From: Alphaproteobacteria bacterium
Lineage (GTDB): Bacteria; Pseudomonadota; Alphaproteobacteria; Sphingomonadales; JAKSBY01
Reading direction: 5' to 3'
Assembly: GCA_021774625.1 (NCBI GenBank)
Contig: JAJFIV010000008.1
Span: 1-64,000 of the forward strand
Length of the DNA stretch: 64,000 nucleotides
A model generated the notes under the pieces. That model searched no databases and was not told the DNA's origin. It was given only the letters and a program-made list of their open reading frames with translations. The position numbers and the translations under genes were made by a program. The number at the start of each line of letters is the position of its first letter. The first letter of the stretch is position 1. Positions 6,266-35,114 of this stretch are shown here, piece after piece.

Positions 6266-7264
6266 TCATTCCACACTCAGGATTTTTCGTATTAATTCCG
6301 GATCATCGGGCAGCAGGCCGGCCTCGGGCAGGCGGGTGACGAGTTCGCGCCAGTCGGGCCACATATCGAAGGCTTTCTTGAACAGGGGCAGGGATTCCTC
6401 CACCTTGCCGGCGGCGGCAAGGGTCGCGGCGTGCCAGAAAATCATTTCATGGCTGTCCGGAACAATGGCCTCGGCGGCGGAATAGGCTTCGACCGCGGCT
6501 TCCACATTGCCTTCGGTCATATGGGCGTCCCCTTCATTCATCAGCGTATAGGCGCGGGCGACGGTCAGCAGGCGGCGCATTTCCGCTATGGGGTCCGCAT
6601 GATCCTCAATCCGGAGGTCAAAAACCCGGCCTTCCCAGCTCGGCACGCCGGCTTCGCCCGTGACCACTTTCAGGGCGGCAGACTGTTTGCCGCGGATATC
6701 GCCGCCTTCAGCCTGCGCGGCTTCCAGCGCCGCCATCATACGTTCGGCAAGATCACCTGCGGTATTCTCATAGGCCTCCGCCATGGCGTCGCACACCGTA
6801 TCCTTCAGCATCAGATTGGCCTGCACCGCATAGCCGTCTCCGGTGTGGTCACAATAGGCGATGATGGCGTTTTCGCCGGTATGATTGACGGCATTGCCCC
6901 TGGCGTCCACCATGCCGATCTGACGAACATCCGTATGCTCGTCGCTTGACATCAGGGCGGATAACGCCTGCCCCGCCGTCTTGCCCGCCCGCATCAGCTC
7001 AAGACCGAGGGGGCCATAACTGACCTTTATGAAAGATTGTGTCGCGACCGCGCCAACGCCGGGTTCCGCCCAGGCCACATCCGATCCCACCGAAAACCAG
7101 TGCGACTGGACGGCCACGCCGATTTGCCCCGTCGCCGCATCGCGCGCAACGATGGAATAGGTATGCGCGGGCCGGATTGGCCGGGGTGTCCATTCTTCAG
7201 CAAAGACGGGCGCCGCGGTGATCAATGCGGCAGCGATCATTGAAGGCGGAATCAAGCGTTTCAT
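6266..7264 (-). CDS. Exported DUF1028 (Ntn-hydrolase-like) protein with a C-terminal TPR-like region
   Basis: A 332-residue protein. Residues 1-22 form a signal peptide ending in PVFAEE. The DUF1028 domain (about 33-235) has the typical HTYSIVARDAATGQIGVAVQSHWFSVG start and a GMVDARG motif; this family belongs to the Ntn-hydrolase fold with unknown substrate. The C-terminus (about 245-332) looks like tetratricopeptide helices (VEAAVEAYSAAEAIVPDSHE). The ATG at 7264 is preceded by AAGGA; a 23-residue longer start has no signal sequence and was rejected. The 5977-6265 gap holds no gene that I can support. Confidence 0.82.
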   Translation of the reverse strand: MKRLIPPSMIAAALITAAPVFAEEWTPRPIRPAHTYSIVARDAATGQIGVAVQSHWFSVGSDVAWAEPGVGAVATQSFIKVSYGPLGLELMRAGKTAGQALSALMSSDEHTDVRQIGMVDARGNAVNHTGENAIIAYCDHTGDGYAVQANLMLKDTVCDAMAEAYENTAGDLAERMMAALEAAQAEGGDIRGKQSAALKVVTGEAGVPSWEGRVFDLRIEDHADPIAEMRRLLTVARAYTLMNEGDAHMTEGNVEAAVEAYSAAEAIVPDSHEMIFWHAATLAAAGKVEESLPLFKKAFDMWPDWRELVTRLPEAGLLPDDPELIRKILSVE

Positions 7265-7344
7265 GAATAATCCTTTGGGACAGATGGTACAAAAAATTTG
7301 AGCGAGAATGCCACAGGCATGGCTGCCTGGCAACTGACCCCTGC

Positions 7345-8016
7345 TCAGTTGCTTTGCGGTCGCTGTCCGTCGGGCCGGCGGCGGCCATCCTGGCGAAATT
7401 CATCGCGCTCCCGGTCACGGCTGGCCCGTCCGCCCGCCGGAATGGAGGCGATGGGCTTCCAGACGACCGGCCGCCAGCTTTGCGCCAGACGGTCGCCTTC
7501 TGCGCGGTCCGCTGCATTCAGGGTGGTTTTCAGTCTATCGATAGAGGCCGTCGCCAGCGGCGTGAAGCCGAGGCGTTTCTGGCCGATATTATTTTCGTAG
7601 AGATTCAGCCACATGGCGGCTTCAACCGGGTTGCGCATATTTTGCGGCCCTTCGAGATACTGGACGGCCAGAGCGCCCTGCGCTTCCGGCCAGCCGGCTT
7701 CCGCCGCCCGCCGCAGCCACACCAGACCCTCCAGATAATCGGTGGAAAAATCCGCAGTCCCGGCCAGCCGGATCAAGCATTCGCCGAGACGGTATTGCGC
7801 ATCTTCATACCCCTTTCCCTGCATGGCGACCTGAAAATAGATGGCCGCGGCCTCCCGGCACTTGCCCCTGGCATGCAGTTCGGTTGCGGTAGCGTATGCC
7901 TGATTGAGATTAAACCCCCGTCCCGCGCCACGGTCGCGGGGACCGGACGCACAGGCGCTCAGCACGATGCCGGCAATGGCAGCAATAAAAATATGACGCA
8001 AGAAGGAATTGGGCAC
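7345..8016 (-). CDS. Sel1/TPR-like repeat lipoprotein
   Basis: A 223-residue lipoprotein. The signal ends in the lipobox LSAC (Cys21 or so). The following region has Sel1-type helical repeats (YRLGECLIRLA, WLRRAAEAGWPEAQGALAVQYLEG, EAAMWLNLYE). The last 30 residues are rich in Arg, Asp and Gly and probably disordered. The start is GTG, with AGGAG about 9 bp upstream. Such proteins are periplasmic scaffolds. It is co-directional with the DUF1028 gene 80 bp downstream and divergent from the acetamidase-like gene. Confidence 0.75.
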   Translation of the reverse strand: MPNSFLRHIFIAAIAGIVLSACASGPRDRGAGRGFNLNQAYATATELHARGKCREAAAIYFQVAMQGKGYEDAQYRLGECLIRLAGTADFSTDYLEGLVWLRRAAEAGWPEAQGALAVQYLEGPQNMRNPVEAAMWLNLYENNIGQKRLGFTPLATASIDRLKTTLNAADRAEGDRLAQSWRPVVWKPIASIPAGGRASRDRERDEFRQDGRRRPDGQRPQSN

Positions 8017-8129
8017 TTTTATGACTCCTGTGGATGATACCTTGTAGTACGCCGGATCAAAGCAAACCCTTTGACCTTTGGCCGATTATCCCCGATATTC
8101 CCCTGCACAATAAAAACGGGGAGGCTGAA

Positions 8130-26351: not shown

Positions 26352-26367
26352 ATGGCGGATGGGGTGG
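26352..26367. other. attL core (16-bp direct repeat)
   Basis: ATGGCGGATGGGGTGG, identical to 35024-35039. Read on the reverse strand it is the last 15 bases of the tRNA-Ser gene (end of T-stem, acceptor strand, discriminator and CCA) plus one base. Identity stops exactly at both sides. This copy is the displaced original 3' end of the tRNA gene. Confidence 0.85.
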
Positions 26368-26401
26368 TTTTTCCCCGATATAACAGAAACAGTAACTTGC
26401 G

Positions 26402-26463
26402 GTGTCTAACGCATCAAAAACGCGGCGTTGATATTAAAAGGTTATTCGGAAAAAGGTCTAACC
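26402..26463. other. Candidate integrase arm-type sites, left end
   Basis: GTCTAAC occurs at 26404-26410 (in GTGTCTAAC) and 26457-26463 (in GGTCTAACC), 37 and 90 bp inside the attL core. The same heptamer occurs twice near the right end (34954-34960 and, inverted, 34972-34978). Lambda-type integrases bind such short arm repeats on both sides of the core. The rest of 26368-26671 shows no gene. Confidence 0.5.
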
Positions 26464-26671
26464 TGGATAAGCCCCCGTGCGGAGAAGAAACCGCCGCCCG
26501 GGGGACAACCAGGGCGACGGAATATCAAAACAATCTGCCCAAAGATCATAGCCGATCCCGCGGGCGAATTCAAGGAAGATTGAGCCTCCGTTTTCCGACA
26601 CCAAGAGACCGGGAAATATCGTCTTTTGTCCGCAATGAATTCTATGAGGCGCGGTTCGCCGGGAGGGGGCG

Positions 26672-27610
26672 ATGATGTTTGATGCTTTTGATGACGCGGT
26701 GCATTTCATATTGGAGAATTCTTCGGATGAAAACCGCTCATATCTTGCTAATCTGAAATTCAATTTCATTGAAGCTTTAACCACCGACACCAGCCTGACA
26801 GCGGCAGATATTGCTGTCGGTGTCGTGATGGCGACCCGGTTTTTTTATCGTTTTGAAGGATGCTGCCACCCGTCTTTGGATACGATTGCGGCTCGTACTG
26901 GCCGGGATAAAAGGACGGTCCGAAGAGCAATCCGGAAATTGGCTCCGAAATACCTTTTGATTCGTGAATCGACGGGGCGCGGCAGGAGTAATGAATACAC
27001 AATCCCTTTCAAGAATTGGGATACAGAAACGATAAAAAAGGAGGACAAGCCTGTCCCCCTTAATGAAGGCGCAAACCGTTTCGAAACCGTTCCGAAAGGG
27101 TCAAAAAGGGGGACAAGCTTGTCACTAAAGGGGGGCGAGGATTGCATAAAGGAGGACAAGCTTGTCACTAAAGGGGGGCGAACTGACCCCCCCAACCCTT
27201 CTCTTAACCCGGTTCTTAACCCGGTTCTTAACGCCGTGGCGATTTCTGACCAAATAGCCATCACGCCTTTGAAGGAAAATTCTAAGGAAGATTTCAGCAA
27301 GCCTGGAAGCACCGAACCTGATCGAACCGACGGCGCTTTGGCTCGGCAGGAAAACGGAGCACATTTCGATGTTGAGCCATTCGCTTCGAAACCAAATCAG
27401 GCGGAACCAAAACAGATCAGCTTGTTCGACTTGTTCGAAGCACTTGGTCTGGATGACGATAAGGCGCGAACGTCACTGGTCGAGAAACTTTGGGACCTTG
27501 AAAGCGATGAGTACGAAAACCTCATGACAGCGTGTCATCGCAAACCGCCGGAGGAGATAGCCCGTCTTCTCGGCGGGGCGCTTGCTATCGGGCGGGAGGC
27601 GGCGGAATGA
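26672..27610 (+). CDS. Winged-helix replication-type protein of the satellite
   Basis: A 312-residue protein. Residues about 40-112 look like a winged helix-turn-helix (HPSLDTIAARTGRDKRTVRRAIRKL, then RGRSNEYTI as the wing), as in phage replication initiators of the lambda O kind and plasmid Rep proteins. A polar linker (about 115-245) follows, encoded by DNA with palindromic repeats, then a small helical C-terminal domain (ISLFDLFEALGLDDDKARTS onward). GGGAGGGGG lies just before the tandem ATGs at 26672 and 26675. It is the first gene of the element and probably starts replication; a transcriptional regulator is the alternative. Its TGA overlaps the next ATG. Confidence 0.6.
   Translation: MMFDAFDDAVHFILENSSDENRSYLANLKFNFIEALTTDTSLTAADIAVGVVMATRFFYRFEGCCHPSLDTIAARTGRDKRTVRRAIRKLAPKYLLIRESTGRGRSNEYTIPFKNWDTETIKKEDKPVPLNEGANRFETVPKGSKRGTSLSLKGGEDCIKEDKLVTKGGRTDPPNPSLNPVLNPVLNAVAISDQIAITPLKENSKEDFSKPGSTEPDRTDGALARQENGAHFDVEPFASKPNQAEPKQISLFDLFEALGLDDDKARTSLVEKLWDLESDEYENLMTACHRKPPEEIARLLGGALAIGREAAE
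27044..27181. repeat. Palindromic repeats inside the replication gene (candidate origin)
   Basis: GACAAGCTTGTC, a perfect 12-bp palindrome, occurs at 27112-27123 and 27155-27166, with a one-mismatch copy at 27044-27055. The last two lie in identical 28-bp direct repeats (27111-27138 and 27154-27181). The copies are 43 bp apart and so are read in different frames, which points to conservation of DNA rather than protein. A CTTAACCCGGTT repeat follows at 27203-27232. The arrangement resembles the lambda origin inside gene O. Confidence 0.6.
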
Positions 27611-27819
27611 CCCCGAAGCAACTGAGCAATGATTTGGTGGCGCTGGTTAATGATTCCATCGAGCGCGGTGTCGGCCCCGATGAGGCGGCCAATGTGATGT
27701 TGGCGGCCTTGTTCCGGCTTCTGGCCGATTATCACGGCAGCGAAGTCACCGCTATGAATGACCTTTGCGGCGGTGTGCATTGTATCGCCCGGCGCACTGA
27801 AGGGAGGATGATGCAATGA
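27607..27819 (+). CDS. Small protein of unknown function in the satellite
   Basis: A 70-residue, mainly helical acidic protein (MTPKQLSNDLVALVNDSIER, then GVGPDEAANVMLAALFRLLADY). The ATG overlaps the stop of the replication gene by 4 bp, which supports translation. I do not recognise the family. Nothing shows whether it acts in replication, packaging or control. The 27820-27984 gap that follows holds no convincing gene. Confidence 0.55.
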   Translation: MTPKQLSNDLVALVNDSIERGVGPDEAANVMLAALFRLLADYHGSEVTAMNDLCGGVHCIARRTEGRMMQ

Positions 27820-27984
27820 CGGTTGGCCGCCAAGCGGGTTTTCAAAAGTTTTCTCCGCAAAATGGCCGGGATTACTCGTGAGTGCCCGAGCTAACATTCA
27901 AAAACCGCGAGCGCCCGTGGGTGTATCTCCCACCGCGATGGGCACTAATTCCCGGAATTTCCGGGCAAATTGAAAGGAAAGAAT

Positions 27985-28371
27985 ATGGCGAAGTGGCCAT
28001 ACAGCACCGCCGCATGGCAGCGCCTAAGGCGTCTTAAACTGGCACAAACGCCGATCTGTGAACTGTGCCCGCCCGGCTATGTGACACCGGCAGACACGGT
28101 GGACCACCGGCTTGCTATAAGCGAGGGCGGCGACCCGTGGGCATGGGATAACCTGACTTCCTGCTGCGCCAAATGCCATAGCATGAAAACGGCGAGAGGC
28201 AAGGAAGCAGGGGCCGCCAAGACGAAAAAACCCATGAAAGGCTGTGATGCAAAGGGCAATCCGCTTGATCAGGCGCACCCCTGGAATCAAGAAAATCGCT
28301 CACAACTGAAGGTTTATAGACCGCGTGGGGAGGCACTTTTTGACTTAGTTGGGGATAAGTCGTGGGATTGA
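27985..28371 (+). CDS. HNH endonuclease (packaging type)
   Basis: A 128-residue HNH nuclease. Zinc cysteines are seen as CELC and CAKC, the metal-binding core as VDHRLAISEGGDPWAWDNLTSC. The start MAKWPYSTAAWQRLRRLKL is typical of HNH proteins encoded next to terminases in HK97-like phages, where HNH and TerL together cut cos sites. The ATG at 27985 follows AAAGGAAAG; the TTG 15 bp upstream lies inside that site. It overlaps terL by 10 bp. This gene is a fixed member of capsid-forming satellites. Confidence 0.88.
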   Translation: MAKWPYSTAAWQRLRRLKLAQTPICELCPPGYVTPADTVDHRLAISEGGDPWAWDNLTSCCAKCHSMKTARGKEAGAAKTKKPMKGCDAKGNPLDQAHPWNQENRSQLKVYRPRGEALFDLVGDKSWD

Positions 28372-29984
28372 GGGGCATCGGATCCAAACGGCGCGGGATT
28401 GCTGCCGCCATGGTGGCAGAGGAGGGCACTCAGCCGCATTCGTGGGAGGCGGAGGGGTTGACCCGCGCCGGGCGCGTGATCGTGTTCCTGGAGTCGCTGC
28501 CGGTCACCAAGGGCATAGGGGCCGGTGAGCCGCTAAAACTTGAACCTTTTGAGACGGATTGGGTTAATTCCATTTATCAGGAACACGACGGCGTTCGCAC
28601 GGTCAGGACCGGGCTTTTATCCGTGGCGAGGGGAAACGGGAAAACGTTACTTGTCGCCGGCTTGTGCCTTGCTCATTTTGTCGGGCCTGAGGCTGAGCCC
28701 CGGGGCGAATGTTATTCGGCGGCTGCAAACCGCGACCAGGCGGCTTTGATCTTTGCGGAAATGGAGGCCATAATCCGCGCAGTGCCCTGGATGGAGGCGC
28801 GGCTTAACATCAAGCGTTTTGGCAAGATCATCGAAGACCTGGAAACCGGGGCCCTTTACAGGGCGCTCGCCAGTGATGCGCCGGGCGTTCACGGGCTCGC
28901 CCCAAGTTTTATTGCTTGCGATGAACTTGCACAGTGGAAGCGGCGGGAGCTGTTTGACGTGTTGCGCACGTCCATGGGCAAGCGAGCGCAACCGCTTATG
29001 CTGGTTATAGGGACGCAAAGCCCTAACCCCGAAAATATCATGAGTGAACTGGTCGATTACGCGGAGCGAGTGAATTCAGGCGAGACCCCGGACCCGGCCT
29101 TTCACGGTAAACTGTACGCCGTTCCTGATGATGCGGACCCCTGGGATGAAAAGAATTGGTACAAAGCGAACCCCGCGCTGGGGATTTTTCGCTCGCTGGA
29201 AGAAATTCGCGTCGAGGCAAAGCGGGCGCAGCGGATGCCAACGTTTGAACCCGCGTTCCGGAATTTATACTTGAATCAGCGGGTTGATGCTGAGCCGAAG
29301 GCGATCGATCCGGCGGAATGGGCCCTATGCGGGGGCAAGGTGAGCGCGAAGAAGCTAAAGGGCCGTCCATGCTGGGGCGGGCTGGATTTGTCATCCACAA
29401 GGGACCTCACGGCCCTGGTGCTCTATTTCCCTGACGACGGCGGGGCGGTCCTGCCCTTTTTCTGGTGTCCTAAGGCCGGATTAGCGGAAAAAGAGGAAAA
29501 GGACAGGGTGCCTTACAGGACGTGGGAAAAACAGGGACATATCACCGCAACGCCGGGCAAGGCGATTGATAAACGGGCGATTGCGCGTCGCCTGCAACAG
29601 ATTGCGGGCGATTATGACATCAAGGGCATTGCCTACGACCGATTCGGCTTTAAAGACCTGGAATCGATCCTTGGACACGAAGGCATTGAACTGCCCCTCG
29701 TCGAATTTGGGCAGAGCTTTGTGAGTATGGGACCGGCAATCGATGCTTTTGAAACCGCGATGTTAAACGGCAAACTTCGGCATGGGAATCATCCGGTCCT
29801 GCGCTGGAATGCTTCGAATGCGGTGTTTGAACCTGACGCCGCAGGCAACAGAAAATGCAGCAAAAATAGGAGCATAGACAAAATTGACGGGCTGGTGGCA
29901 TTGATAATGGCGACGGGCTTGCACGCGAAGGCACCTGTTGAAGAAACCTATGATTTTGATCGTGATCTTGTGCTTACGGCGTGA
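28362..29984 (+). CDS. terL: Phage terminase large subunit (HK97-type)
   Basis: A 540-residue packaging motor and nuclease. Walker A is SVARGNGKT (87-95), Walker B FIACDE (183-188), and the coupling motif LVIGTQS (214-220). The RNase H-like nuclease has acidic residues at Asp342 (GGLDLSST), Asp426 (AYDRFG) and Asp509 (KIDG). Full family length and no missing motif, so it looks functional. It starts at GTG with GGGGA upstream, overlapping the HNH gene. No recognisable small terminase lies before it, which is unusual. Confidence 0.93.
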   Translation: MGLRGIGSKRRGIAAAMVAEEGTQPHSWEAEGLTRAGRVIVFLESLPVTKGIGAGEPLKLEPFETDWVNSIYQEHDGVRTVRTGLLSVARGNGKTLLVAGLCLAHFVGPEAEPRGECYSAAANRDQAALIFAEMEAIIRAVPWMEARLNIKRFGKIIEDLETGALYRALASDAPGVHGLAPSFIACDELAQWKRRELFDVLRTSMGKRAQPLMLVIGTQSPNPENIMSELVDYAERVNSGETPDPAFHGKLYAVPDDADPWDEKNWYKANPALGIFRSLEEIRVEAKRAQRMPTFEPAFRNLYLNQRVDAEPKAIDPAEWALCGGKVSAKKLKGRPCWGGLDLSSTRDLTALVLYFPDDGGAVLPFFWCPKAGLAEKEEKDRVPYRTWEKQGHITATPGKAIDKRAIARRLQQIAGDYDIKGIAYDRFGFKDLESILGHEGIELPLVEFGQSFVSMGPAIDAFETAMLNGKLRHGNHPVLRWNASNAVFEPDAAGNRKCSKNRSIDKIDGLVALIMATGLHAKAPVEETYDFDRDLVLTA

Positions 29985-30008
29985 GCGCGGAGGGGGCGGA
30001 ATTCACTT

Positions 30009-30052
30009 TTGTGGATTATTTATTTTTCGGGTATTGTATATCTCATTGAGAT
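30009..30052 (+). promoter_or_regulatory. Candidate promoter with palindromic operator
   Basis: In the only real gap of the structural block, TTGTGG (30009-30014) and TATTGT (30032-30037) stand 17 bp apart as possible -35 and -10 boxes. ATCTCATTGAGAT (30040-30052) is a palindrome with a one-base centre just downstream, placed where a repressor would block initiation. It would drive the unknown gene, capsid, protease and portal separately from the packaging genes. Confidence 0.35.
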
Positions 30053-30067
30053 CGAATATCATAGGGC

Positions 30068-30787
30068 ATGGCTAAACTTACAAATTTGGTTGATCTGACC
30101 GCCAGAATCGCCGCCGTACCCCGCAAAAGCGCAAAAGTTTGGGGCGCTGGGCTTCGCAAGGCGGGCATGATCTCAAAATTCGGGCGGGGTCCGCATGCAG
30201 CGGATATGGTAGCCAGCGATGCCGCGAATATGCTTTTAGCCGCGATGCAATTTGGCGCAGCGGTGGAAATTGCGCAGACTGTTAATAGACTTCGCGAATT
30301 GCCGTTTTTTTCTTTTAAAATTGATCCGGGGGTTGATCGGGAGTGGCGCGAGCTGGAAGCGATAATTTATGCACAGGAGTCAATGGAAGGCGACAGACAT
30401 CCGACGTTCCGCGACATGGACGAAACTTGCACGCTTGGAAAGTTTTTAGACCGCATGATTCGCGCGGGCAACAGCGAAGGCAGCGCCGTTTTTGAGAATC
30501 GATGGGACAGAGTACGCCTGGAGCAAACGACTCATGCAACAAAATTTATAATCGAACTCGCTGAGCGAGAATATGGCGTCCAGGACGACGGGTGGCACAG
30601 CGAAAAAAAAAAGGGGTGGAAATTTGAATTCTCTGCATCATCGCAATCCGAAGATCAGTTTGGAACGCGTCGATCGACAGAAATTTACTGTGAATCGCTT
30701 CGCGCATTAGCGGAGCTAATTAGGAAGCCAGCGCTGGACAAAGCGGGGGCACACTCGGTGCCCGGGCCAAGTGCCCGGGCCAGATAG
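30068..30787 (+). CDS. Unknown satellite protein between terminase and capsid genes
   Basis: A 239-residue soluble protein. The N-terminal 60 residues (DLTARIAAVPRKSAKVWGAG, then LRKAGMISKFGRGPHAADMV, then a hydrophobic helix) look like a compact helix-turn-helix. The middle and C-terminus (about 90-220) have mixed helix and strand with Trp/Arg-rich parts and no motif known to me. It occupies the head-gene block, where a small terminase, a head-size factor or a connector might be. A DNA-binding start would fit a small terminase or regulator, but that is only inference. The upstream ribosome site is weak. Confidence 0.6.
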   Translation: MAKLTNLVDLTARIAAVPRKSAKVWGAGLRKAGMISKFGRGPHAADMVASDAANMLLAAMQFGAAVEIAQTVNRLRELPFFSFKIDPGVDREWRELEAIIYAQESMEGDRHPTFRDMDETCTLGKFLDRMIRAGNSEGSAVFENRWDRVRLEQTTHATKFIIELAEREYGVQDDGWHSEKKKGWKFEFSASSQSEDQFGTRRSTEIYCESLRALAELIRKPALDKAGAHSVPGPSARAR

Positions 30788-30801
30788 AAAGGAAGAAAAC
30801 C

Positions 30802-32061
30802 ATGAATAAGCACATTAAAATCAATGACTTGGAAGAACAGCGGGCCAAGCTTTTAGAAGAAGCCCGGGCCGCATGCGACCTCGATGACGGCGAAAAATTC
30901 GCAAAAATTGAGGAGGAGATTGACGAAATCACCACGCGAATTTACCGCGCCGCGAAAATCGATGAACTCGACCGCCGCGCGCAAGGTCGCGCCATCACCG
31001 GCAGCGAGGATGAGAATCTGGATCAGGAGCTCCGCCAATTTTCCATCGTCAAAGCCATTGCCGGCGCGGCTGGCCTGAGCGTCGACTGGGGCAGGGAACG
31101 TGAATTGCAGGCGGAACTTGCAAAACGCGCCGGACGCCCGGCCAAGGGTATTTTAATTCCCACGCAAGTGTTTGAAAAGCGCGTTCTGACTACCGGCCTG
31201 CCAGTTGCTGGGCCGGGCTCCAACATTATAGCAACCGATCATCGCGGGGATCAATTTATCGACATTTTAAGGAATCGGCTCGCAATTAATATGCTGGGCG
31301 CGACGGTTTTGAATGGCCTGACCGGCAACGTTGACATTCCCCGCCTGAAGGCAAGCGGATCAACCGGCTGGGTTGCCGAAAATGCCGCGTTAACCGCCGC
31401 TGACAACCAATTTGACAAGGTTGCGATGACCCCCAAACATGCCGGGGCGCTCACCGAATTATCGCGCAATATGTTGCAGCAGTCGTCCCCCGATATTGAG
31501 GATTTGGTTCGGCGGGATTTTGCCGCCCTGCTGGCCGAAGCCATCGACACGGTGGCGATTAACGGCGGCGGAACCAATGAGCCGACCGGCGTACTGGCGA
31601 CCACCGGCATCCCGACGGTGGCGCTCGGAACGAATGGCGCAGCGATGACGGTGGACACCGCCACGGACCTGATCGCCAAGATAGATGACGCCAACGGCCC
31701 GGCGGCCCGGCGCGGGTTTTTGAGCAACACGAAGGTGAAAGCGGCGGCGCTTAAGTTGAAAGACTCGAATTTGCGGCCATATGGGTTGGCGGAAGTCTTC
31801 AAAAACGAGCGTGTCGAATTCTCAAACGCCGTTCCTGCGGACCTCGCCAAGGGCACCGGCAGCAACCTCAGCGCAATACTTTATGGCGATTGGTCCGAAT
31901 TGATCATCGGGTATTGGAGCGCATTTGATTTGCTGGTTAACCCCTACGAATCAACCGCTTTCAAGAAGGGCAACGTTCAAATCCGGGCCATGATGACCGC
32001 CGATATCGCACTTCGACATGTTGAATCCTTCGCAGTCGTCAAGGATGCAATCGCATCATGA
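30802..32061 (+). CDS. Major capsid protein, HK97 family
   Basis: A 419-residue HK97-fold capsid protein. Residues 1-about 105 are a charged coiled-coil delta/scaffold domain (LEEQRAKLLEEARAACDLDD). The mature part has typical motifs: WVAENAALTAADNQFDKVAMTPKHAGALTELSRNML, then NEPTGVLATTGIP, and the C-terminal FDLLVNPYESTAFKKGNVQIRAMMTADIALRHVESFAVV. AAGGAAG precedes the ATG. Its stop overlaps the protease ATG by 4 bp. It should form the satellite's own prohead, probably with the N-domain removed by the protease. Confidence 0.93.
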   Translation: MNKHIKINDLEEQRAKLLEEARAACDLDDGEKFAKIEEEIDEITTRIYRAAKIDELDRRAQGRAITGSEDENLDQELRQFSIVKAIAGAAGLSVDWGRERELQAELAKRAGRPAKGILIPTQVFEKRVLTTGLPVAGPGSNIIATDHRGDQFIDILRNRLAINMLGATVLNGLTGNVDIPRLKASGSTGWVAENAALTAADNQFDKVAMTPKHAGALTELSRNMLQQSSPDIEDLVRRDFAALLAEAIDTVAINGGGTNEPTGVLATTGIPTVALGTNGAAMTVDTATDLIAKIDDANGPAARRGFLSNTKVKAAALKLKDSNLRPYGLAEVFKNERVEFSNAVPADLAKGTGSNLSAILYGDWSELIIGYWSAFDLLVNPYESTAFKKGNVQIRAMMTADIALRHVESFAVVKDAIAS

Positions 32062-32600
32062 ACCGGGCCGACATAGAACGCCGGACTTTTGCAGAATTTC
32101 GCGCCAAAGGCCGCCGGCTTGAGGGTTATGCCGCCAAGTTTGGCAATGAGGCGCGTATCGGCCCATTTGTGGAAACCATTGCCAGCGGCGCATTTGCCGC
32201 GTCGCTGGCATCCGGGGCCGACATTCTCGCGCTGGCGGATCATGACGCCAAGGCGGTTTTAGGGCGCACCCGCTCAGGTTCGCTTAAATTATCAGAAGAC
32301 GAAACCGGCCTTGCCTTTGAACTCGACTTGCCCGCAACCCGCACGGCGGATGACCTTTTAGCATTAGCGGAGCGGGGCGATTTGGGCGGAATGAGTTTCG
32401 CCTTTACCGTCCCGAAAGGCGGCGATATCTGGAAAGGCCAACGGCGCGAATTGCGCAGCGTGAACCTTCATGAGATTTCGGTTGTGTCGGCGTGGCCCGC
32501 TTACCCGGATACGGAAGTTACGGCCCGTTCCCGGTCAGACACCGCCGCGCAGCGACGGGCCCGCCTGGTGCGCCTATGGGCCATGGAGGCCAGAAAATGA
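32058..32600 (+). CDS. Prohead protease, HK97 family
   Basis: A 180-residue serine protease of the HK97 gp4/herpes assemblin fold. The catalytic His62 (ALADHDAKAVLGRT), Ser113 (LGGMSFAF) and third residue Glu139 (NLHEISVVS) are all present. It cuts the scaffold domain from the capsid protein during head maturation. Capsid, protease and portal follow each other with 4-bp overlaps in an order that is the reverse of HK97 and lambda-like phages (portal, protease, capsid). Confidence 0.92.
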   Translation: MNRADIERRTFAEFRAKGRRLEGYAAKFGNEARIGPFVETIASGAFAASLASGADILALADHDAKAVLGRTRSGSLKLSEDETGLAFELDLPATRTADDLLALAERGDLGGMSFAFTVPKGGDIWKGQRRELRSVNLHEISVVSAWPAYPDTEVTARSRSDTAAQRRARLVRLWAMEARK

Positions 32601-33748
32601 GCATTCTTGACCGATTCCTAAGCCGCCCGGAAAAACGCGCTCATGACCCCTCCTGGGCCGCGCTGGCCGATATCGACGCCACGGGCCAGGCGGTCAATGC
32701 CCGCACAGCGGAAAATCTTGCGACCATTCTCGCAGCTGTGCAAGCTATCAGCGGCTCCATATCGGCTTTGCCAGCCCGCGTTCACCTGCTGGGCCGCAAG
32801 GGCCGCCAATTGGCCCCGGATCATCCGGTTTCACGCCTGATAAGCGACGGTCCGAACGCCCACCAAAATTGGTGCGATTTCATGGAATGGCTTATCGCTT
32901 CGGCACTTTTACGCGGCAACGGGCTCGCGGAAATAGTTACTGAGGGCGGCGCGGTGGTCGAATTAAAACCTATTCCATGGCAACACGTCGGCGTTCAGCT
33001 ATTACCCGCTGGGAGGTTGGTTTACGATATTTCCGACACGACCGGCGGCGGCAGGCGACGGCTCCTGGAGGGCGAAGTTCTCCACCTTAAAGACCGGTCC
33101 GACGATGGCCTCGTGGGCCGCTCGCGGCTATCGCGCGCAGCCAAGACCATCTCCGCCGCCTTGTCCCTACAAGACCACGCGGGCGCAATGCTGGCGAATG
33201 GCGTCTATCCAAGCGGCACGCTGGAAGCGGAAGGCAAACTAAGCACGGAGGCCTTAAGCAAACTTAAAGACCTTTTCAAAGCGGCCTTCAGCGGCCCGAA
33301 TAAGGCCGGCAAGGCGCTTGTGCTCGATCAAGGGATTAAATGGAACGGAATCTCGCCCATGTCGCCTGAGGACGCTGAATTGCTGGGCTCGCGCCGGTTT
33401 AGTGGCGAGGAAATCGCCCGCATTTACAATATCCCACCCGCAATCGTCGGCGACCTCACGCATGGCACCTTCACGAATTCCGAAACCGCCGGGCGCTGGT
33501 TTGCCCAGCACACGTTAACGCCATGGATATGCAAAATTGAAGCGGAATTCCGCCGGTCAGTATTTAGCGCCCACGACCGCGCCGCATACGGCCTTGATAT
33601 TGACCTGTCCGGCATGCTGCGCGGCGACCCGGAAACCAGATGGAAGAGTCACAAGATCGCCCGCGACGCGGACATTCTCGATATTAACGAAATTCGCGAA
33701 ATAGAAGGTTTCAACCCGCGACCTGCAACGGCGGAGGTTGTGGCATGA
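32597..33748 (+). CDS. Phage portal protein, HK97 family
   Basis: A 383-residue portal. Typical motifs: RTAENLATILAAVQAISGSI at the start, PDHPVSRLISDGPNAHQNWC, the stem region LVLDQGIKWNGISPMSPEDAELLGSRRFSGEEIARIYNIPP and the C-terminal DILDINEIREIEGFNP. It forms the dodecameric ring through which TerL pumps DNA. The ATG at 32597 overlaps the protease TGA; an earlier in-frame start would lie inside the protease gene. Somewhat shorter than HK97 portal but all conserved parts are there. Confidence 0.93.
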   Translation: MSILDRFLSRPEKRAHDPSWAALADIDATGQAVNARTAENLATILAAVQAISGSISALPARVHLLGRKGRQLAPDHPVSRLISDGPNAHQNWCDFMEWLIASALLRGNGLAEIVTEGGAVVELKPIPWQHVGVQLLPAGRLVYDISDTTGGGRRRLLEGEVLHLKDRSDDGLVGRSRLSRAAKTISAALSLQDHAGAMLANGVYPSGTLEAEGKLSTEALSKLKDLFKAAFSGPNKAGKALVLDQGIKWNGISPMSPEDAELLGSRRFSGEEIARIYNIPPAIVGDLTHGTFTNSETAGRWFAQHTLTPWICKIEAEFRRSVFSAHDRAAYGLDIDLSGMLRGDPETRWKSHKIARDADILDINEIREIEGFNPRPATAEVVA

Positions 33749-33927
33749 GCCGGCGCGTGGCATTTCGGCAAGCGGACATCACCCGCGCCCTGAAAGGGGC
33801 GAAAAAAGCGGGAATGGCCCCCAAATGCTTCGTGGTTCACCCGTCCGGGAAGATTGTGGTTTACGAGGATGATAAATATATCAATGCGGCGAATGAATGG
33901 GATGACGTCCTGAATGAAACAGCGTAA
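33745..33927 (+). CDS. Small basic protein before the integrase
   Basis: A 60-residue protein (MSRRVAFRQADITRALKGAK, then KAGMAPKCFVVHPSGKIVVY). Proteins of this shape commonly precede integrases in alphaproteobacterial phages and islands. The N-terminal half could be a helix-turn-helix, so an excisionase-like role is possible but not shown. Its ATG overlaps the portal stop by 4 bp and its end overlaps the integrase start by 14 bp. Confidence 0.65.
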   Translation: MSRRVAFRQADITRALKGAKKAGMAPKCFVVHPSGKIVVYEDDKYINAANEWDDVLNETA

Positions 33928-34996
33928 GCGCCTGCCAAAATATGTAACGGAGTTTCATGATCGCCACGGCAAGAGTCGCGTCCGGTTCCGCCGCAAGGGG
34001 CAGACGTCCTATTATTTTAAATCCGCCCCATGGTCTCCGGAATTCATGCAGGAATATCAGGCTTGTATGGAGGGGAGGGCGGCTCCCCGGATTGAGCCGG
34101 GCGCAGACAGGACGGTACCGGGCAGCTTTTCGGTCCTGATCGTTAAGTATTACCGTTCGGCCTATTATCTTGATCAGAGGGCCAGTACAAGGGCCACATA
34201 TCGCGGGATACTGGAAAGGTTCCGACGGGAATATGGCGACAGGCGGGTTGCCACTATCCAGAAGCGTCACATTGTGGCGATTCTTGCGAGGAAGGCTGAC
34301 ACGCCGTCGGCGGCCAATAACCTTCTCAGAATGCTGAAAATCCTGATGAAGGTCGCGAAAGATTGCGAAATCCGCAAAGATGATCCGACGGCGGACATTA
34401 AATCCAGAAAAATAACAGGGGACGGATTCCACACATGGACAGAAGAACAAATTGCGGCTTTTGCACAGGTGCACAAGATAGGAACGAGGGCGCGGCTGGC
34501 CTTCTCGTTGCTTCTGTATACGGGCCAGCGGCGATCCGACGTCGTTAGGATGGGATATCAGCACATCGAGGGCGAATATGTGCAGGTGCGCCAGCAAAAG
34601 ACAGGGACCAGCCTAAAGATCAGGATGCACCCGGAATTACAAAAGGTTTTGGCCCGGACGCCCCGCGATAACCTCACCTTCCTCACAACCGGATTCGGCA
34701 AGCCTTACACGCCCGCCGGCTTTGGGAACTGGTTTCGCGACTGCTGCAATCAGGCAGGGCTGAGGCAATGCTCGGCACACGGACTGAGGAAAGCGGCTGC
34801 GCGGCGCATGGCGGAAGCGGGCTGCACCGAGGAAGAAATCAAGTCTGTAACCGGCCATAAAACATCGCGGGAAGTGTCCCGATATACGAAAGCGGCGAAT
34901 CAGGTTTTGCTGAGTGACAACGCCATGGCGAAGGTCACGAAAGCGGAAAAAGTGTCTAACCTCCCGAAAAGGTTAGACAAAACGAACAGTAAGTAG
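33914..34996 (+). CDS. int: Tyrosine integrase of the satellite
   Basis: A 360-residue tyrosine recombinase. A short arm-binding-like start (VTEFHDRHGKSRVRFRRKG) is followed by a SAM-like core-binding domain (about 70-165) and the catalytic domain. Catalytic residues are all present: Arg206 (YTGQRRSD), Lys229, His289 and Arg292 (AHGLRK), His315 (TGHK) and Tyr324 (VSRYTKA). It should recombine the 16-bp core in tRNA-Ser. It reads toward the tRNA gene, which is on the opposite strand, ending 27 bp from the att core. Confidence 0.95.
   Translation: MKQRKRLPKYVTEFHDRHGKSRVRFRRKGQTSYYFKSAPWSPEFMQEYQACMEGRAAPRIEPGADRTVPGSFSVLIVKYYRSAYYLDQRASTRATYRGILERFRREYGDRRVATIQKRHIVAILARKADTPSAANNLLRMLKILMKVAKDCEIRKDDPTADIKSRKITGDGFHTWTEEQIAAFAQVHKIGTRARLAFSLLLYTGQRRSDVVRMGYQHIEGEYVQVRQQKTGTSLKIRMHPELQKVLARTPRDNLTFLTTGFGKPYTPAGFGNWFRDCCNQAGLRQCSAHGLRKAAARRMAEAGCTEEEIKSVTGHKTSREVSRYTKAANQVLLSDNAMAKVTKAEKVSNLPKRLDKTNSK
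34952..34978. other. Inverted GTCTAACCT/AGGTTAGAC pair at the right end (arm sites or hairpin)
   Basis: GTCTAACCT (34954-34962) and AGGTTAGAC (34970-34978) form a 9-bp inverted pair around a 7-base loop, inside the last codons of the integrase gene and 46-70 bp from the attR core. The heptamer GTCTAAC also occurs twice near attL. It could be a pair of integrase arm sites; as RNA it would form a hairpin, but no U-tract follows, so a terminator is less likely. Confidence 0.5.
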
Positions 34997-35023
34997 TTGC
35001 AATGAAAGGAATAAAAAATGAGT

Positions 35024-35039
35024 ATGGCGGATGGGGTGG
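35024..35039. other. attR core (16-bp direct repeat)
   Basis: ATGGCGGATGGGGTGG, identical to 26352-26367. It overlaps bases 35025-35039 of the tRNA-Ser gene, supplying the last part of the T-stem, the acceptor strand, discriminator and CCA. The tRNA therefore stays intact after insertion. Confidence 0.85.
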
Positions 35040-35114
35040 GATTCGAACCCACGAAGAGCTTGCACCCTTGCCGGTTTTCAAGACCGGTGCCTTCAACCGC
35101 TCGGCCACCCATCC
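35025..35114 (-). tRNA. tRNA-Ser (anticodon UGA), attachment site of the satellite
   Basis: A 90-base class II tRNA on the reverse strand. Acceptor stem GGATGGG/CCCATCC with discriminator G and encoded CCA. The D-arm begins TGGCCGAGCGG, the anticodon loop is CTTGAAA (anticodon TGA), a long variable arm is present, and the T-arm is GTGGGTTCGAATCCCAC. Tyrosine integrases often use the 3' ends of such genes; here the 3' end is supplied by the element. Confidence 0.95.

Follow-up and report, generated by a model that had tools for sequence, protein, structure and literature searches.

The closest described systems are the cf-PICIs. As given in papers that cite the primary reports, their definition includes head–tail connectors (PMC10690885), their hosts are mainly Enterobacteriaceae, Pasteurella, Morganellaceae and several groups of Firmicutes (PMC10803314), and their capsids fall into three radiations (PMC11389934). 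The published gene list (PMC10690885, PMC13230959) is the gene set of an element of Pseudomonas aeruginosa PA7. Alphaproteobacteria were not found named as cf-PICI hosts in the literature searched, the coverage of which was partial. The cf-PISP satellite-plasmids of Vibrio are tail-less and encode a capsid (PMC13230959). MulchRoom and MiniFlayer of Streptomyces encode a head and the packaging functions themselves; the former seems to rely on the tail of its helper, and both are reported to have no significant homology to cf-PICIs (PMC10690885). The alphaproteobacterial element described here is tail-less and capsid-encoding like the cf-PISPs and, like the Streptomyces pair, has head and packaging genes of its own. 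It is probably an integrated cf-PICI-like satellite which assembles a small head from its own proteins, packages its DNA there and uses the tail of a helper. It differs from the cf-PISPs in being integrated and in carrying an integrase and an O-like initiator (PMC13230959). MulchRoom and MiniFlayer differ from the element in that key replication genes are missing, a scaffold gene is present and their helpers are virulent (PMC10690885).

The element occupies positions 26352–35039 of the window, that is, of the whole stretch of 64,000 nucleotides that was analysed. Both ends are formed by the exact 16-bp direct repeat ATGGCGGATGGGGTGG, to which no strand is assigned. The left copy is attL (26352–26367) and the right copy is attR (35024–35039), and the repeat search, allowing up to two mismatches, returned only these two copies in the 64 kb. 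The unit measures 8,672 bp, and its GC content is similar to that of the surrounding DNA. The right copy overlaps the 3′ end of a tRNA-Ser(TGA) gene (35025–35114, minus strand), which is the integration site; the repeat at a tRNA-Ser 3′ end reported in the earlier note is exact. An empty site was sought in relatives, in which the flanks matched the tRNA alone, no sister species being close enough.

All genes of the element lie on the plus strand, and their frames are free of frameshifts and stops. Overlaps of 4 bp (ATGA) join rep to orf71, capsid to protease, protease to portal, and portal to orf60. The first gene, rep (26672–27610), encodes an O-like replication initiator of 312 aa with an HTH_36 domain (PHROG 678, 1.8e-10). 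It is followed by orf71 (27607–27819), to which no function was assigned. The packaging module consists of an HNH endonuclease (27985–28371; profile 2.6e-21) and the large terminase TerL with ATPase and nuclease domains (28362–29984; profile 1.6e-140), in the translation of which the P-loop GNGKT can be read by eye. The next gene, orf239 (30068–30787), encodes a protein with an N-terminal helical (HTH-like) domain and a beta-rich C-terminus, and occupies the slot of a MerR-type protein in relatives. The head genes encode an HK97-fold major capsid protein (30802–32061; profile 3.8e-69), a prohead protease of family S78 (32058–32600; profile 7.7e-51) and an HK97-type portal (32597–33748; profile 7e-88). 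The gene orf60 (33745–33927) lies in the slot of an AlpA-type excisionase in many relatives. The last gene encodes a tyrosine integrase (33914–34996; profile 7.8e-36), whose catalytic motifs R, HxxR, H and Y were read by eye in the translation as GQRRSD, HGLRK, GHKT and SRYT. Profile searches thus bore out every protein named in the earlier note, namely the integrase, replication-type protein, HNH, TerL, capsid, protease and portal, and its account of a single strand, 4-bp overlaps and unbroken frames was also correct. Its list omitted orf239 and orf60, though both are conserved in relatives, and it overlooked three iterons inside the replication gene.

These iterons are 19 bp long (27037–27055, 27105–27123 and 27148–27166, plus strand), and the palindrome GACAAGCYTGTC forms their core. 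None of 200 codon shuffles of the gene reproduced them. Six of 12 homologous rep genes contain at least three copies of similar repeats of their own, and such repeats were found in none of the 46 other core genes checked. The iterons are likely to be the replication origin. Phage lambda likewise has iterons inside its replication gene O.

The predicted genes of the element gave no profile match (PHROG, Pfam) to tail, lysis, connector or small terminase (TerS) genes, except that the HNH protein weakly matches an HNH-containing PHROG labelled small terminase. An Stl-like repressor was likewise not recognised by profiles among these genes. A gp6-connector profile built from the sequences of relatives had no match in any frame of the window (best E 3.9), and an AlpA profile did not find its target there either (best E 0.1). 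The modules that the earlier note had not seen were not found by profile search either, apart from the weak match of the HNH protein. A complete tailed prophage was rejected on the tail, lysis and connector searches, and PICI, P4 and PICMI elements, which have no capsid of their own, on the presence of the capsid, protease and portal genes.

The element and the cf-PICIs are both integrated, with an integrase and att repeats. Capsid, protease and portal genes are present in both, as are HNH and TerL, and neither has tail or lysis genes. The likeness extends to the capsid–protease–portal order and to a sister capsid clade, both judged on the PA7 element. The element differs in that its integrase is at the opposite end, its packaging genes precede the capsid gene, and its length is 8.7 kb compared with about 14 kb on average. 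TerS and connectors were not found, orf60 takes the place of AlpA, and the host belongs to the Alphaproteobacteria and not to the families described for published cf-PICIs. The element is not filed as a canonical cf-PICI, since searches for connectors, TerS and AlpA did not find them.

Relatives are numerous. A capsid with 63% identity is that of Alpha proteobacterium Q-1, which belongs to another family of the same order, and capsids with 40–52% identity occur in several further families. Among GTDB species genomes the capsid profile detected at least 82 loci, and in IMG/VR at least 437. About 90 homologous loci contain the gene block with no tail module. The gene order in most alphaproteobacterial loci is HNH–TerL–(gene)–capsid–protease–portal–(small gene)–integrase, with a primase-helicase or an O-like initiator upstream of HNH. 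The head gene order emphasised in the earlier note is thus present but not peculiar to the element, being the rule in relatives and in the gamma/beta sister clade. Where the earlier note proposed looking for the same 8–10 kb set at tRNA-Ser, 38 loci are bounded by att repeats of at least 16 bp, a few of these loci being near-duplicates, with units of 8,494–11,350 bp (median 10,434). Their sites comprise ten kinds of tRNA (Tyr, Arg, Gln, Ala, Thr, Val, Ser, Phe, Met and Lys), so that the expected tRNA-Ser is only one among them. The element is, as had been supposed, among the smallest, since a short O-like gene replaces a primase of about 620 aa. Two relatives (L059 and L100) lie about 46 kb apart on one contig of Sphingobium wenxiniae, and their proteases are 94% identical.

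The HK97-type head genes and the tRNA-linked integrase would be plausible leftovers of a tailed prophage that decayed by losing its tail and lysis genes. We consider this origin very improbable, since an att-bounded unit of near-constant size recurs across many genera and tRNA sites, its genes are intact in the element, and circular contigs exist among relatives. Selection argues in the same direction. Median pairwise dN/dS is 0.17 for capsid, 0.19 for protease, 0.18 for portal, 0.12 for TerL, 0.18 for HNH and 0.16 for integrase, the per-gene medians spanning 0.09–0.19. Throughout the family the core genes evolve under purifying selection, and the relaxed selection on orthologues named in the earlier note as a sign of decay was not observed. 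Relatives with full tail and lysis modules, the other such sign, were not encountered; the tail searches in relatives took in coding-strand ORFs of at least 75 aa, up to three per cluster. The only att-bounded relative with a recognisable tail gene is a 9.5-kb unit (L066), in which a tape-measure-like gene of 592 aa (6278–8056) is found where HNH and TerL normally sit. A deleted prophage was discarded on conservation, size, selection and circular forms.

The capsid clade is also separate from tailed phages. In a quick tree, supported by SH-aLRT only and with long branches to the outgroup, separate groups were formed by 80 capsids, mostly from Alphaproteobacteria and IMG/VR, by 15 gamma- and betaproteobacterial capsids and by those of seven isolated tailed phages, with a few sequences outside them (e.g. 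L053, L085, L101 and L105). The alphaproteobacterial group is sister to the clade holding the PA7 element. The phages S-LBS1, CRP-811, RcRhea and VP882 have HK97-fold capsids of the same broad family with at most 37% identity, the limit for the isolated tailed phages, but they possess full genomes of about 32–38 kb. The PA7 element (L084), roughly 11 kb long and near a tRNA-Thr, has an integrase and the genes capsid–protease–portal–HNH–TerS–TerL–Ad1–Hc1, Ad1 being the adaptor and Hc1 the closure protein.

Five IMG/VR contigs of 9.8–10.7 kb have terminal repeats of 118–127 bp and are therefore circular units; an integrase was detected in one of them. The other four (L138, L149, L150 and L021) contain the same capsid block, and L150 also has a TerS gene (PHROG 83). 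These four are possibly satellite-plasmids, and the circular relatives, some with no detected integrase, look similar in kind to the cf-PISPs (PMC13230959). Such circular 10-kb relatives, some with no detected integrase, could also belong to a very small autonomous virus, whose short tail or entry apparatus would come from orf71, orf239 or orf60 or whose particle would be tail-less; genes with no family assignment are present, and the use of a helper is itself deduced. This is unlikely. Only a few small genes are unassigned; orf239 lies in a slot of DNA-binding proteins and orf60 in that of an excisionase, and no lysis gene was found by profiles in the element. A gp6-like adaptor (PHROG 40), a protein whose presence implies that the head is joined to a tail, is encoded between portal and integrase in 30 of 93 relatives; it is missing from the other 63 and from the element.

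The remaining small gene in the portal–integrase gap of relatives is often of the AlpA or orf60 type. From its slot, orf60 is probably a recombination directionality factor that directs excision. The MerR-type protein of relatives usually lies between TerL and capsid; its model (pLDDT 86) best matches in the PDB the MerR regulator CvkR (E 2.6e-4). The model of orf239 (pLDDT 70) had no match in the PDB or BFVD, and its link to the MerR-type slot proteins is weak (hhalign E 0.007, probability 5%). In 96 loci either a MerR-type or an orf239-type protein is encoded, never both together, and orf239 therefore probably does the job of the MerR-type protein. It is probably a DNA-binding specificity factor, either a regulator or a substitute for TerS.

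The head-building genes with no tail genes, together with dozens of relatives adjoining tRNAs, make a satellite that borrows tails probable. The tail-less, capsid-encoding satellite proposed in the earlier note thus finds support in the 38 att-bounded loci, the circular contigs and purifying selection. We propose the following route. The integrase inserts the element at the 3′ end of the tRNA-Ser gene and the tRNA stays intact, as the anatomy shows. When a tailed phage is active, the element would excise as a circle, the form seen in relatives, and replicate from the iterons within its own O-like gene. Judging from the protein families, its capsid, protease and portal would assemble into a small prohead, into which the element DNA would be packaged by HNH and TerL. 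Volume scaling from HK97 (T=7, about 40 kb) predicts a T=3 head for about 11 kb, and the unit size would match such an HK97-type head. The filled head would receive the neck and tail of a helper phage, and the helper would lyse the cell, as the missing neck, tail and lysis genes and the precedent of cf-PICIs suggest. With TerS and connectors missing from the element, the attachment of a tail would require neck proteins of the helper or an unrecognised protein.

The host has, on contig C32 (G000, ~21000–42000; L035, L218), one other unit with the same portal type, encoding TerL, portal, protease, capsid, adaptor, neck and major tail protein. The cluster also encodes a non-contractile tail sheath protein, BR0599, NlpC/P60 and Rcc01698-like tail proteins, and may be a prophage or GTA-like. 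Alphaproteobacteria commonly carry gene transfer agents, and with such a separate head–tail cluster in the host the element could be regarded as a gene transfer agent or a domesticated capsid system. This is highly improbable, as the integrase, att sites and own rep gene with iterons argue for a selfish element, as do a patchy distribution (a close capsid in seven of 248 genomes of the order) and many different tRNA sites. The resident agent was rejected as the identity of the element because the C32 cluster, which encodes a head and a tail itself, is distinct from the element, and a gene transfer agent in general because integrase, att and rep are present in the element and a tail was not found. 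As a tail donor for the satellite the C32 unit is only a possibility. More tentatively, and with some doubt, one may picture an alphaproteobacterial radiation of mostly connector-less satellites whose portals dock on foreign necks, with C32 as a possible resident donor. In such a radiation, the portals of members with no connector genes would have to dock straight onto the neck proteins of the foreign tail. What least equipment a head needs to accept a foreign tail is testable, since members with and without the adaptor gene exist, and several hosts of relatives are culturable.

The gene set of the element is near the minimum for a satellite making its own head. It looks like part of a further widespread lineage of capsid-making satellites in Alphaproteobacteria, with hosts in Sphingomonadales, Rhodospirillales, Acetobacteraceae, Hyphomicrobiales and Caulobacterales. 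A 12.5-kb plasmid of Planctomyces sp. SH-PL62 (NZ_CP011277.1) also encodes an HK97-type capsid and is a possible satellite-plasmid outside the Proteobacteria.
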